Source of the DNA: Heterostelium album PN500
Lineage: Eukaryota > Evosea > Eumycetozoa > Acytosteliales > Acytosteliaceae
Length of the DNA stretch: 64,000 bases
Direction: 5' to 3'
NCBI RefSeq assembly: GCF_000004825.1
Contig: NW_008805064.1
Span: 2,480,001-2,544,000, forward strand
Part shown: in pieces, positions 43,686 through 51,056 of the stretch
Numbering within the stretch: the stretch's first letter is position 1
Layout of the letters: each line of letters opens with the position of its first letter
Position numbers and translations under genes: made by a program
The notes under the pieces: generated by a model
What the model saw: only the letters and a program-made list of their open reading frames with translations
The model's database searches: none
Told to the model about the DNA's origin: nothing

Positions 43686-44921
<1,236 letters not shown>

Positions 44922-46234: not shown

Positions 46235-46387
46235 TCTCTAGACAGCGATTTACTGTTGTAATGACTTTATCTCGGTTAATGAACTAAGCAGCTGCTTCAA
46301 GAGTGTAAGAATTCTTCTGATACTGATCTGATAACAATATTTTGGGTATAAATAAAATTTTTAAATTTTTGTTGATCAAACATCAGT

Positions 46388-46459
46388 TCCCCTTTGGTCT
46401 AGTGGTGAGGATTTTCGCCTGTCACGCGAAAGGCCCGGGTTCAATTCCCGGAAGGGGAG
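46388..46459 (+). tRNA. tRNA-Asp (anticodon GTC)
   Basis: This 72-nt cloverleaf has acceptor arms TCCCCTT and AAGGGGA, discriminator G, D-arm TGGTCTAGTGGTGAGGA and an anticodon stem TTCGC/GCGAA around the loop CTGTCAC with GTC at 46421-46423. The T-arm CCGGG-TTCAATT-CCCGG contains a good B box (GGTTCAATTCC). There is no intron. It is the apparent targeting landmark for the retrotransposon that begins 67 bp further on. Confidence 0.95.
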
Positions 46460-46510
46460 AAATAATTTTAAAAATATTGTTTCGCATGCGGATACTAATG
46501 AATTTCTTCA

Positions 46511-46526
46511 TAAGTTTAACACTAAA
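46511..46526 (+). repeat. Target-site duplication, left copy
   Basis: TAAGTTTAACACTAAA is found again at 51041-51056, directly after the poly(A) tail of the LINE. This left copy starts 52 bp downstream of the tRNA-Asp gene. Confidence 0.9.
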
Positions 46527-46774
46527 GTTTTTTTTCGTTTTTTGTATACAATTAGTAACTGTATACTACTATTTATAATTATTATATTTTCATATTTATA
46601 TCAACTATTTAGCAATAACTATTAATAATACAACATATTATTGCAATAATATAAGATTTAATATAAATTTAAACTAATTATTACATATTCATCTAATCAC
46701 CATCAAATCTTATTTTATTCTATAATATATATTTATATACATTTAAATAACAATAAGAACAACCAATTAGTAAA

Positions 46775-47554
46775 ATGAGTACTCTATTCGAGTTCTATAA
46801 AAAGAATCTAAAGCTTAGCAACAATGCGACCTTCATGCAACTCATACAACTAGAGAGCATTCATGTACGTCTATACTTTCCTAAATCAAATTACGTCAGT
46901 AACAAGATTTTAGAAAAACTATATGATCTCTTCATTATGAGCACTGTATCAGATCCCGAGGGTCGTAGGACAAGCAAAGGAATTGTATTTAACGGAAGGA
47001 TTGACAGATCACGTCTCAATGATCTACATGTTTACTGTAGTGAGAACCTTTCGATAAATAAACCTAGAAAGATTGTTGCCTATTTCCCTTCTTTCAACTT
47101 TCTAAAAGTATCAGCAATAACAACATCAGACAGCTCTAAAGCAATTAAAGAGGATGAATTCAAGAAGATATACAAGAAGAATCATGCTCTTTTTTCACAT
47201 GTCTCCTCTCTGCTACCCACCAAAGACAATACCACTAAACTATACAAAGCATCTACATGGGTACTCTACGAGAAAGATGTCATCATTTCTGACGCTGACT
47301 ACAAAGACGAAGAATCGGGTTATACTTCAACTCTAACCAAATACGTAGAACCTACACAAAGAACTTCTTCTACAACTACAACAACAACTTCAACCGATAA
47401 GAAGAGAAATAAGAAGAAGAATGACACTACAACAGTTAGACAAAGAGAAGTTAAAGATTCAGAAGATACAAATCAAAACAAGAGAACTCAGGCTCCAGCA
47501 GGTAATACGCAGACACATGTGAGAATACCCTTAGCCCCAATTGGACAACCTTAA
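46775..47554 (+). CDS. LINE ORF1 protein (259 aa)
   Basis: It starts MSTLFEFYKKNLKLSNNATF. The first ~175 residues look like a folded domain with mixed hydrophobic and basic residues (IHVRLYFPKSNYVSNKIL). The last ~80 residues are a low-complexity Thr run followed by a Lys/Arg-rich stretch (KKRNKKKND), suited to nucleic-acid contact. No CCHC knuckle is present. In tRNA-targeting dictyostelid LINEs, ORF1 proteins are thought to bridge the element's RNA to the pol III machinery; that role is inferred here from position only. ORF1 ends at TAA 47552-47554, overlapping the open frame of ORF2 by 20 nt. Confidence 0.85.
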   Translation: MSTLFEFYKKNLKLSNNATFMQLIQLESIHVRLYFPKSNYVSNKILEKLYDLFIMSTVSDPEGRRTSKGIVFNGRIDRSRLNDLHVYCSENLSINKPRKIVAYFPSFNFLKVSAITTSDSSKAIKEDEFKKIYKKNHALFSHVSSLLPTKDNTTKLYKASTWVLYEKDVIISDADYKDEESGYTSTLTKYVEPTQRTSSTTTTTTSTDKKRNKKKNDTTTVRQREVKDSEDTNQNKRTQAPAGNTQTHVRIPLAPIGQP

Positions 47555-50500
47555 GCTACTTCTATGGAACTGCAGGGGCGCAGTTCTACAAAAATCACTG
47601 GAAGATATAGCCTCTTTAATTTCATCTACTTCACCACACATCACCCTACTTACAGAAACTAATCACGTCACAATCACCTCACTCAACTCATATTTCAACA
47701 AAAATAATAATAATAATAAGATAATAACTACTTCAAACGGTCAAGGAACTGGGGTTGCAATCATCTCTCATTCCAAGCATATCAATCTATACCCCTCTCT
47801 CATCGATCCTAATGGAAGATTCATTCTGTGTACTATAAGAATATTCAACAATAGCTTCAATCTCCTACATATATATGCTCCAGCAAGCAAACCAGAGCAA
47901 AGATTGTTTGCTGATCAACTCTTCAACAACACTTCTCTTTGGTTACCAAACCATATAGACATTTGCACTGGCGACTTTAATTGTATACCAGGAGACAGCT
48001 CACCACTATCAACAATATTAGATTTCCTCAGCGATGATCATGATCTTATTGATCTAGATAGTACAAACAACAGCAGCACTTGGAAACGTGGCGATACAGA
48101 AAAGAGATTAGACAGAATATATTGCAAATTTACAATAGAAACATCCAACTTCCAACTACACCCTAGAGCACTATCTGACCACTCACCAATCACAACAAAC
48201 ATAAAAATCACACCACCACAACTATCACAAACACAGTGGAGACTCGATAAGGAAACTTCACTAGAACCAGAAGTACAATCACTTATTAATAACATTATCA
48301 CCACCAAAAACATCAACAACATAGAAGACTGGATAAAAGTCAAATCATTAATCATAGAATGCTACATAAACTATCAAAAGAAAAGGAAAAGAATAAAAAG
48401 AAATGCGATAATCAACTTACTGAAAACAATAGACTCCAACCTCCCCAACAACATCATACAATCAGCAAAATTAGATCTTATCAAGTTACAAACAGAAGAA
48501 AGGAATCTAAGAGATTCAATTCGCAAGGTCAACCAACAACTAAACGGTGAAATCCCTTCTCGATTATTAACCGCTAAACTAGCTCAATCCAAAAAAGATA
48601 CCAACATCGTCGGTTTAAGATTAAATGAAACCACGGTTACATCTAATCTCGATGATATGGTGAACATCATGGAGAAGTACTACAGATCGTTATTCAGAAA
48701 TGTTCCAGATGATCCAACCATACACAATAGACTACTTAACGAATGGAAATGTGAAATAACCGATGACAGCATTGCCAGAGAATTCACAACCGAAGAGATC
48801 ACAGAAACTATTAATTCATCCAACCCATGGAAATCACCTGGCCCAGATGGCTTAGGACTATGGTTCTACCGAGCCCACTGCGATGTCATTGCCCCTATAC
48901 TCACCAAACTTTACAACCAATCACTCAACTCAGGCAATCCACTACCAAGCGAATTCAAAGTAGGCACCATCACAACTATTTACAAGAAAGGTGATATATT
49001 CGATCCAGCCAATAGAAGACCAATAACACTACTCAACAACGATTACAAAGTTATCACCAAAGCAATCAACAATCGAATGAAAACCTTGGTAGACCTAATC
49101 ATCAACGACAACCAAACTGGCTTTGTACACAAGAGATATATCATGGACAACATCATCACGATGAATGAAATAATAGAATACTGCAAACTCAGAGGATTAA
49201 GTGGCTTAATAACATTATTCGACTTCAACAAAGCCTTCGACAGCATCTCTCACGGCGCTATTAGAAGAACACTACAACACATTAAAATAGACAACAAAAT
49301 AATCAACCTAATAATGAACCTTCTCACAGGTTCTACCGCCAGAGTAATTGTCAACGGATTTTTAACTAACCCTATTCCTATCAACAGAGGAGTTAAACAA
49401 GGAGATCCACTATCACCAACGTTATTTGTTCTAGTCATCGAATGTTTGGCCAGAGCCATACTCAATTCCAAAGCAATCGGTCTTCCACTAAACGATTTCA
49501 ACACAATGGTTAAATTATTACAATTCGCAGATGACAGTAGCACATTTTCAGCAAATTATAAAGATCTGAAACTAAAATTAAGAATCTTTAACCTGTTCTG
49601 CCAAGCCACATCATCCAAAATCAATCCCACCAAGTGTTGTATCATCCAAATAGGTCCACCTTGCAGCGACCATCTTCACCACCCCCCGATCATAGGCGAC
49701 ACAAGAATACCAAAGTCAATTGTCAACGAAAGATATCTCGGTCTTTTCTTTAACTCCGAAGGATTACATCATTCACTTTCATCAATAGTCAGCGAAGTTA
49801 AATCATCACTGATCAAATGGAAGAAGTTTGGCACAACCCTAAGGACTAAAATGTCAATACTCAAGTCATACACACTATCAAAACTCTCTTACCACATGTA
49901 CCTTGACAAATTCACAGAATCAGATATCAAATCACTCAACAAAATAATCACTTGGTTCCTATGGTCATCCAACCTCAGACCTTTCGAAGATGCAAAATCA
50001 TTTAAGAATACAATGACACTCTCCAGAGCAGTACATCATTGGAAAAATGGTGGCATTTCATTGTGGGATATGAAACTACGAAATGACGCTCAACACATTT
50101 GGATACTAAATAGAGTAATTGCAAATCAAGATGTCTATTCCCCATACTACCAAAGCTGGCGTAACCAGATCAGACATAACAAGATAACCTCACCTACACT
50201 CAAACATTCCATCCTTCTTTGGCAACAATTCAGACCAATTATGAAATTACCTCCACATCAAATGAAACCAATATTGCGTAATGACGAACCACTACCACTT
50301 AAACTTATATACCACGACCTTATCAACCATCACCACAAACCAGTACTTACATCAGGTCAATTCCAACTATCTCTTCCCCCCACCAAAATAGACTTTACAT
50401 CAACCCGAAACATCTTCTACTACATTAACTCCATCAAACACCACAGAGGTAGAAACACAGTATTCAGATTCTTCTCAAGATCACTTCCTGGTATGGCATA

Positions 50501-50864
50501 CATCAAACAAGACAGTTGTAAACTATGTTCAGCAAATGACTTTGACCCACACACACATTATTTCTTTAATTGTCGAGTCATCCTAAACAAATTCAACCTC
50601 AAACACATCACACAACATCTACAAATTGCCAACTACGAAGACGAATGGTCACTGGAAAAATCTACTACTCACTTCTACCTCTGCGATGAATCATCAGACC
50701 TAACAGCGATCATCTACCACAACATTTGGAAACATGTCAGTTCAATTCTATTCAGTCAAGATGACAAAATACTCGATTTCTCCAACCAATCTATTATATC
50801 CGACTTCGATATCCACAGAAACATTCTAAAATTAATAAACAACACTCCAACACCAGCCAACTAA
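47535..50864 (+). CDS. LINE ORF2: AP-endonuclease / reverse transcriptase / zinc finger
   Basis: This frame is open from 47535 to the stop at 50862-50864, about 1,107 residues. An AP-like endonuclease occupies ~1-225 (LLLWNCRG, LLTETN, TGDFNCIPG, ALSDHSPI, with the metal-binding and catalytic E, D/N and SDH residues in place). Reverse transcriptase spans ~420-700 (NPWKSPGPDGLG, FDFNKAFDSISH, GVKQGDPLSP, and the active-site FADD at 49524-49535). A CCHC-type zinc finger sits near 990 (CKLC ... HTHYFFNC). No RNase H is visible. There is no ATG near the start; the only non-standard starter is TTG at 47541. Translation should depend on ORF1 by frameshift or reinitiation. Confidence 0.9.
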   Translation, partial: PQLDNLKLLLWNCRGAVLQKSLEDIASLISSTSPHITLLTETNHVTITSLNSYFNKNNNNNKIITTSNGQGTGVAIISHSKHINLYPSLIDPNGRFILCTIRIFNNSFNLLHIYAPASKPEQRLFADQLFNNTSLWLPNHIDICTGDFNCIPGDSSPLSTILDFLSDDHDLIDLDSTNNSSTWKRGDTEKRLDRIYCKFTIETSNFQLHPRALSDHSPITTNIKITPPQLSQTQWRLDKETSLEPEVQSLINNIITTKNINNIEDWIKVKSLIIECYINYQKKRKRIKRNAIINLLKTIDSNLPNNIIQSAKLDLIKLQTEERNLRDSIRKVNQQLNGEIPSRLLTAKLAQSKKDTNIVGLRLNETTVTSNLDDMVNIMEKYYRSLFRNVPDDPTIHNRLLNEWKCEITDDSIAREFTTEEITETINSSNPWKSPGPDGLGLWFYRAHCDVIAPILTKLYNQSLNSGNPLPSEFKVGTITTIYKKGDIFDPANRRPITLLNNDYKVITKAINNRMKTLVDLIINDNQTGFVHKRYIMDNIITMNEIIEYCKLRGLSGLITLFDFNKAFDSISHGAIRRTLQHIKIDNKIINLIMNLLTGSTARVIVNGFLTNPIPINRGVKQGDPLSPTLFVLVIECLARAILNSKAIGLPLNDFNTMVKLLQFADDSSTFSANYKDLKLKLRIFNLFCQATSSKINPTKCCIIQIGPPCSDHLHHPPIIGDTRIPKSIVNERYLGLFFNSEGLHHSLSSIVSEVKSSLIKWKKFGTTLRTKMSILKSYTLSKLSYHMYLDKFTESDIKSLNKIITWFLWSSNLRPFEDAKSFKNTMTLSRAVHHWKNGGISLWDMKLRNDAQHIWILNRVIANQDVYSPYYQSWRNQIRHNKITSPTLKHSILLWQQFRPIMKLPPHQMKPILRNDEPLPLKLIYHDLINHHHKPVLTSGQFQLSLPPTKIDFTSTRNIFYYINSIKHHRGRNTVFRFFSRSLPGMAYIKQDSCKLCSANDFDPHTHYFFNCRVILNKFNLKHITQHLQIANYEDEWSLEKSTTHFYLCDESSDLTAIIYHNIWKHVSSILFSQDDKILDFSNQSIISDFDIHRNILKLINNTPTPAN

Positions 50865-51040
50865 TCAAGTAAATGAAATTAACTCTCTTCCCAACCTGCC
50901 AACTAATTAATTAAATCAACCAACAACTAAAAAGAAAAAAAAAAATAGACTACGAAAAAAACTTGATGGTAAATCCATCCTTTTAATACAACTTTTAATA
51001 AAACATGTATACCACTTTAGTTATTATAAAAAAAAAAAAA

Positions 51041-51056
51041 TAAGTTTAACACTAAA
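51041..51056 (+). repeat. Target-site duplication, right copy
   Basis: TAAGTTTAACACTAAA matches 46511-46526 without a mismatch. It follows the A-tail that ends the LINE. Confidence 0.9.

Follow-up and report, generated by a model that had tools for sequence, protein, structure and literature searches.

A full-length TRE3-A retrotransposon behind a tRNA-Asp gene of Heterostelium album, and a landing rule that probably extends to other RNA polymerase III genes

Does a TRE3-type retrotransposon seek out tRNA genes as such, or does it read any gene transcribed by RNA polymerase III (Pol III)? The question is raised by a long interspersed nuclear element (LINE) lying just downstream of a tRNA-Asp gene in a 64,000-nt stretch of Heterostelium album PN500 (contig NW_008805064.1, positions 2,480,001 to 2,544,000, forward strand), here called the window. 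We examined the locus together with the whole genome (32.9 Mb, 39 contigs), designating loci by L handles and contigs by C handles; published work is cited by PMC number. The reading we consider probable is that the element is a full-length copy of Pp_TRE3-A, recently inserted at the 3′ flank of tRNA-Asp, and that the TRE3-type landing rule is wider than tRNA genes, reaching sites downstream of Pol III genes.

Element and insertion site

The initial annotation, made from the window sequence, described a whole TRE3-like LINE behind tRNA-Asp on the same strand. This is confirmed: the element is 4,513 bp long, both open reading frames (ORFs) are open and a poly(A) tail is present. The features are as follows.

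46388-46459, + strand: tRNA-Asp(GTC), the insertion target (Rfam RF00005, 64.2 bits; ARAGORN gives 46387-46460)
46482-46491, + strand: CGCAT-type tRNA 3′ element, TCGCATGCGG, one mismatch from CCGCNNGCGG (window pattern scan)
46510-46526, + strand: left target-site duplication, 17 bp, first A ambiguous (longest exact flank-to-flank match)
46527-51039, + strand: full-length TRE3-A, 4,513 bp (end-to-end alignment with L002, 99.8%)
46775-47554, + strand: ORF1, 259 aa, open reading frame
47535-50864, + strand: ORF2 open frame, 1109 codons, apurinic/apyrimidinic (APE) endonuclease plus reverse transcriptase (RT), +1 (or -2) relative to ORF1
47562-48182, + strand: APE-type endonuclease domain, Exo_endo_phos (Pfam PF03372 at E 4e-9; residues 8-214 if translation is begun at 47541)
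48984-49646, + strand: reverse transcriptase domain, RVT_1 (Pfam PF00078 at E 2.3e-33; residues 482-702 if translation is begun at 47541)
50517-50573, + strand: ORF2 C-terminal cysteine/histidine cluster CKLCSANDFDPHTHYFFNC, zinc-finger-like by eye, no domain-model match
51028-51039, + strand: poly(A) tail, 12 A (read from the sequence)
51040-51056, + strand: right target-site duplication, 17 bp (longest exact flank-to-flank match)

The longest exact repeat common to both flanks is the 17-bp ATAAGTTTAACACTAAA, the runner-up independent match being 11 bp. Because the initial A could instead be part of the poly(A) tail, the duplication is 16 or 17 bp, which accommodates the perfect 16 bp first reported. 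Its left copy begins 50-52 bp past tRNA-Asp, depending on the choice of tRNA end and first base, and the element itself, which is on the same strand, begins 66-67 bp beyond that gene; the 52-67 bp placement originally given agrees within a base or two. TRE5 elements are placed differently, about 50 bp upstream of tRNA genes and in opposite orientation.

Two ORFs, with APE endonuclease and RT in ORF2, characterize TRE3 and are found here. The best matches of ORF2 among solved structures are LINE-1 ORF2 proteins, while a Pfam scan of ORF1 gives no family above cut-off. The ORF1 stop falls within a short ORF1/ORF2 overlap, and ORF2 lies in frame +1 (or -2) in all four full TRE3-A copies of the genome; its first in-frame ATG is deep inside the frame, at 48657, with none near the ORF2 start. 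The APE/RT anatomy, poly(A) tail and duplication imply that the copy would have entered the 3′ flank of tRNA-Asp by target-primed reverse transcription.

Any two of the four full-length copies (L001-L004) differ at between 7 and 30 of roughly 4,510 positions. The nearest relative of the window copy is L002, with seven differences in 4,513 positions and no gaps; this match from end to end, together with the perfect duplication, supports the recent insertion of a full-length element, as initially proposed. A second family, TRE3-B, has two full-length copies, L007 and L008, lying 59 and 61 bp behind tRNA-Lys and tRNA-Pro. Its ORF2 is 52% identical to the window ORF2 and is in frame -1 relative to ORF1 in both copies.

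Both families appear to have been published already. Table 1 of PMC5006619 gives, for Polysphondylium pallidum (current name Heterostelium pallidum), a Pp_TRE3-A of 4,515 bp with 35 copies, four of them full length, 26-138 bp downstream of tRNA genes, with ten copies at tRNA genes on the assumption, suggested by other rows, that the figure in brackets is a count; Pp_TRE3-B is listed with 4,741 bp and 38 copies, two of full length. Our family has 4,513 bp, 32 resolved copies, four full-length copies and distances of 24-95 bp from tRNA genes. We infer that the window element is Pp_TRE3-A, matched on tabulated length, copy numbers and distance rather than on deposited sequence, and we regard the window copy as one of the four full-length copies published for it. 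The element itself shows no difference from the published one, and the available text of that paper describes tRNA association only; the association with Class I RNA genes and with a short interspersed nuclear element (SINE), described below, is added here.

TRE3-A copies at tRNA genes and elsewhere

The 32 copies come from 46 matches merged by hand: eight TRE3-B cross-matches (72%) were dropped and seven second pieces merged, leaving 31, to which L034, a copy without a 3′ end, was added. More diverged TRE3-A fragments (e.g. C10:591710, C4:965499 and C7:1489560) were left out. A genome search for further copies, with their distance and strand, bears out the link to tRNA genes, since nine of the 32 follow a tRNA gene in sense at a distance of 24-95 bp: Asp (66 bp), Gln (47 bp, if taken to the first base that aligns), Met (62), Lys (53), Cys (62), Asp (95), Cys (52), Val (24) and Lys (74). 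The tRNA-Glu gene neighboring L002 runs on the opposite strand and is left out of the nine. The TRE3 integration rule invoked by the initial annotation therefore stands for these nine copies. As a tRNA-only rule it fails to describe the family, because the other 23 copies are not directly behind a tRNA gene.

Some of these are nested, with other elements between the copy and a tRNA gene (L034, L042/L058, L047, L050 and probably L048). Two contig ends, L012 (C18) and L010 (C16), both carry the duplication CAAGGTGCGACCGCA and for that reason seem to be halves of one copy. A tandem TRE3-A pair (L005/L034, on C2) stands behind a single tRNA-Met with 31 bp between its members; the 5′-truncated copy is probably the younger, being nearer the tRNA.

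Other copies follow small-RNA genes of different kinds. L060 is preceded, at a distance of 30 bp, by a Class I RNA gene (Rfam RF01414, 52.4 bits, cut-off 41.5), and L054, at 71 bp, by a weak Class I match (29.2 bits, below the Rfam cut-off) that has the AAG start, the CTGT end and, 67 bp before it, a word resembling the Dictyostelium upstream sequence element (DUSE). The full-length L002 is about 50-70 bp behind a copy of the tRNA-like SINE. Duplications of 13-16 bp flank the non-tRNA copies L004, L009, L013, L045 and L054, which we therefore regard as insertions in place. Before L013 and L045 a DUSE-like word is followed, after 58 and 61 nt, by the common letters AATTGGGGC, and runs of T8 (L013) and T7 (L045) begin 24 and 32 bp before the TRE3-A.

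The DUSE-like word, picked in part from these same flanks, was taken as CCCATAA or AACCATAA. It occurs in sense within 400 bp upstream of six of 19 non-tRNA copies (L004, L013, L043, L045, L054 and L060), against 36 of 1272 400-bp windows in the 64-kb window, both strands, and three of 112 at tRNA loci (binomial P 1e-5). The antisense count is 0 of 19, and that for the tRNA-linked copies tested is 0 of 8. The test began with nine copies, most of whose flanks had already been viewed, and was extended to all 19 non-tRNA copies with sequenced flank retrieved; two of these flanks contain 100 N, and four further non-tRNA copies fall outside the set. L043 is missing both ends and has no duplication. 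With Rfam at E up to 1 (L013, L045, L054, L118, L119, L048, L052 and L043), solely the weak Class I match in L054 was found; a match to RF02060 before L040, E 1.5, was dismissed as chance.

A separate observation concerns L119, before the TRE3-A copy L009, which holds a tandem pair of ~95-nt units, 88.5% identical, and has ATGAAGACTCCATCAT in common with the L045 flank.

A tRNA-like SINE behind the same kinds of genes

The L002 flank was used to search for the SINE, giving 22 matches that represent 21 copies (L128 holds two); L138 brings the total to 22. The repeat is about 200 bp long, has an A-box-like start plus GGGTTCGAGGC by eye, and ends in poly(A) in L082. Thirteen of the 22 copies lie 19-79 bp directly behind a gene, all in sense. 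Seven follow tRNA genes: Lys (58 bp), Leu (77), Val (65), Glu (77), Gly (56), Sec (79) and a Tyr-like match below cut-off (71). Five follow Class I genes, at 42, 37 and 34 bp for those above the Rfam cut-off and at 60 and 19 bp for those below it; of the six Class I flanks looked at for the SINE, three had been chosen since a SINE match was known there, and a SINE was present at one of the other three. The thirteenth is 50 bp behind an RNase P RNA gene (RF00009, 86.4 bits, match cut at its 5′ end). One further copy stands behind the TRE3-A copy L060, and eight are without an assigned gene, including C11:1476423, whose flank was outside the inspected set.

Another short repeat (GGCTATATTTCTCACGGCCTGTGTGAGAATGTAAA...), with poly(A) at its end, is found repeatedly at sites of TRE3-A and of the SINE (L128, the L009 3′ flank and the L048 5′ flank).

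A CGCAT-type element downstream of tRNA genes

The CGCAT-type element of the window locus has counterparts at other tRNA genes. The tRNA sample comprised the best 63 matches, from which 56 loci with ten kinds of tRNA were retrieved. All 57 sampled genes at these loci have, within 60 bp downstream, a CGCAT-based form, lying about 22 bp behind the gene, in one of three versions: CCGCNNGCGG with at most one mismatch (35 genes), GCGCGCA (18) or CGCAT-gap-CCGCAT (4). For the same genes the control counts are 0/57 in the upstream 60 bp, 0/57 at 60-120 bp downstream and 1/57 at 120-180 bp, and the window background is 3/2132 60-bp tiles. Since the patterns were set on the same 57 genes as were counted, 26 held-out genes are the fairer test, and 22 of them have the element. 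The four exceptions are two that are split by a TRE3-A insertion (L012 and L046), a near miss (L015) and tRNA-Sec (L130), where AACCCATAA is present upstream.

Across the whole genome there are 63 places with CCGCATGCGG against one for its backwards control, and 37 with ATGCGCGCAT against three, these totals covering all places and not the share at tRNA genes. A T4 run stands ahead of the element in 38 of the 57 genes. At Class I loci the element appears in two of nine inspected (L054 and L137). At L091 a single CCGCCTGCGG/CCGCAGGCGG palindrome lies between convergent tRNA-Gly and tRNA-Arg genes and is common to both.

An older paper reportedly described consensus boxes flanking tRNA genes of D. 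discoideum, and a related element may stand there. The external B box of that species (some 100 bp downstream from the internal one; PMC5911963) differs from the CGCAT-type element in both sequence and place. No literature report of CGCATGCG with tRNA was found, subscription papers and supplements being outside the scope.

What is recognized at the target

On the reading we prefer, TRE3-A and the SINE would land about 20-95 bp downstream, in sense, of actual or probable Pol III genes. The SINE would follow the TRE3 landing rule, and its position, strand and poly(A) tail suggest that it probably does so by borrowing TRE3 proteins. For Class I RNA and RNase P RNA genes we know of no internal B box; because genes of both kinds are hit, the likeliest tether would be a component that Pol III genes share, such as TFIIIB or the polymerase itself, and not TFIIIC on the B box alone.

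Several results weigh against so broad a rule. At least 12 of the 23 non-tRNA copies have no assigned small-RNA gene; the full-length L004 has a DUSE-like word alone, and no recognized unit is seen at L009, L040 or most fragments. One of the two Class I genes behind which TRE3-A lies scores below the Rfam cut-off, as do two of the five preceding a SINE. A structured non-coding RNA before L013 was sought and rejected, since the predicted fold is no better than shuffles (z -0.78). The DUSE-like word takes a three-C form in four of the six copies, whereas all P. pallidum Class I DUSEs are published with two Cs (PMC7919456); it is the three-C form that carries the signal (4/19 versus 16/1272, P 8e-5), the two-C form alone being weakly enriched (2/19 versus 20/1272, P 0.035). 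By inspection, finally, the SINE and TRE3 tails share no sequence beyond poly(A).

The simplest alternative is the TRE3 of the literature, for which tRNA genes are the sole target and any copy elsewhere is a stray, the product of a rearrangement or a relic of a tRNA gene since lost. It is how the family is reported in PMC5006619, and it accounts for the nine copies directly at tRNA genes and for more in nests behind them. We nevertheless think it unlikely: the two TRE3-A and five SINE copies found with Class I genes, like the single SINE at RNase P, are always downstream and in sense, the Class I cases arising though just 18 Class I matches are listed in 33 Mb, and five non-tRNA copies have the 13-16-bp duplications given above. 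A second alternative, in which TRE3-A recognizes the CGCAT-type element rather than Pol III factors, draws on the tRNA-linked copies, which have the element or sit inside it, and on CCGCTTGCGG downstream at the Class I loci L054 and L137. We consider it very improbable and rejected the element as a targeting signal, since insertions lie before it (L046), inside it (L010/L012 and L003) and after it (L001), and genes that do not show it are also hit, among them tRNA-Sec and the RNase P gene, each with a SINE behind; the scarcity of the element at Class I loci points the same way, although SINEs cutting the flanks partly explain it.

A rather doubtful possibility, if somewhat better placed than the tRNA-only account, is that the SINE is moved by another retrotransposon using the same target zone, such as those of the NLTR or Skipper-2 groups. 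Skipper-2 inserts 54-136 bp downstream of tRNA genes in P. pallidum (PMC5006619), and the lack of common sequence in the tails would fit; the poly(A) tail of the SINE at L082 is that of LINE-moved elements, however, and the strand and distance of the SINE match TRE3-A.

Returning to the landing rule for Pol III genes at large, we see an even chance that it is part of a larger arrangement. The CGCAT-type palindrome at nearly every tRNA gene would be the site of a new Pol III-gene factor. Apart from it, TRE3, together with the SINE borrowing its machinery, would read the whole Pol III set, genes with an external DUSE included. Insertions would then mark Pol III genes, some of them unannotated (before L013 and L045), and would suggest that Class I RNA genes belong to the Pol III set.

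Comparison with known systems

The TRE3-A of D. discoideum resembles the present element in its two ORFs, APE and RT domains in ORF2, downstream in-sense insertion at tRNA genes and poly(A) (PMC5911963); it differs in that ORF2 is reached by a -1 frameshift, as against +1 (or -2) here. Targeting in D. discoideum has been linked to the internal or external B box (PMC5911963). The D. discoideum TRE5-A is a precedent for a dictyostelid LINE reaching other Pol III loci, namely the 5S gene and A/B-box loci on rDNA, although its insertions lie ~50 bp upstream, oppositely oriented, and depend on a B box (PMC5391098); unlike it, the present family goes downstream in sense, also at genes without a known B box. 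The published traits of dictyostelid Class I RNA genes (PMC7919456) are found in L060, L054 and L131, with an AAG start, a gene end of CTGT and, 67-69 bp ahead of the gene, a DUSE-like word. In its available text that paper does not mention retrotransposons and calls Pol III transcription of Class I genes possible ('may be'). In the literature covered, which included PMC5006619, PMC5911963, PMC5391098, PMC7919456, PMC13063481 and PMC11193728, we found no published report of Class I or wider targeting by TRE3-A, of the SINE rule or of the tRNA 3′ element, subscription papers, supplements and Repbase lying outside the scope.

The published list gains nothing from the window element itself; it is the surrounding survey that adds to it. 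Insertion at Pol III genes without an internal B box, if true, would mean that the tether is not TFIIIC on the B box alone, and would narrow the open question of how downstream-inserting LINEs find their targets. The insertions would in addition label Pol III genes naturally, bearing on Class I RNAs as putative Pol III products. The tRNA 3′ element lends itself to simple tests for a new Pol III-gene factor.

Other small-RNA genes and neighboring features

For the signal recognition particle (SRP) RNA there are two candidates, C4:196595 and C7:128688. No TRE3-A, TRE3-B or SINE match lies near C7:128688 or two U6 matches, and these empty surroundings speak neither for nor against the wider rule. 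Behind C4:196595, fragments of another repeated element begin at ~23 bp and a decayed TRE3-A lies ~840-950 bp away, on the same strand; this neighborhood is suggestive and was left uncounted. A repeated element with a poly(A) tail (CTGTAGGGTAATATCAAGCTCTACACCTTGACTATCAGTAATGG...) adjoins TRE3-A copies at the L050, L047, L058 and L049 flanks and begins ~23 bp behind an SRP RNA candidate. Elsewhere in the window, the open frame at 43839-44921 has a translation that is actin-like by eye.

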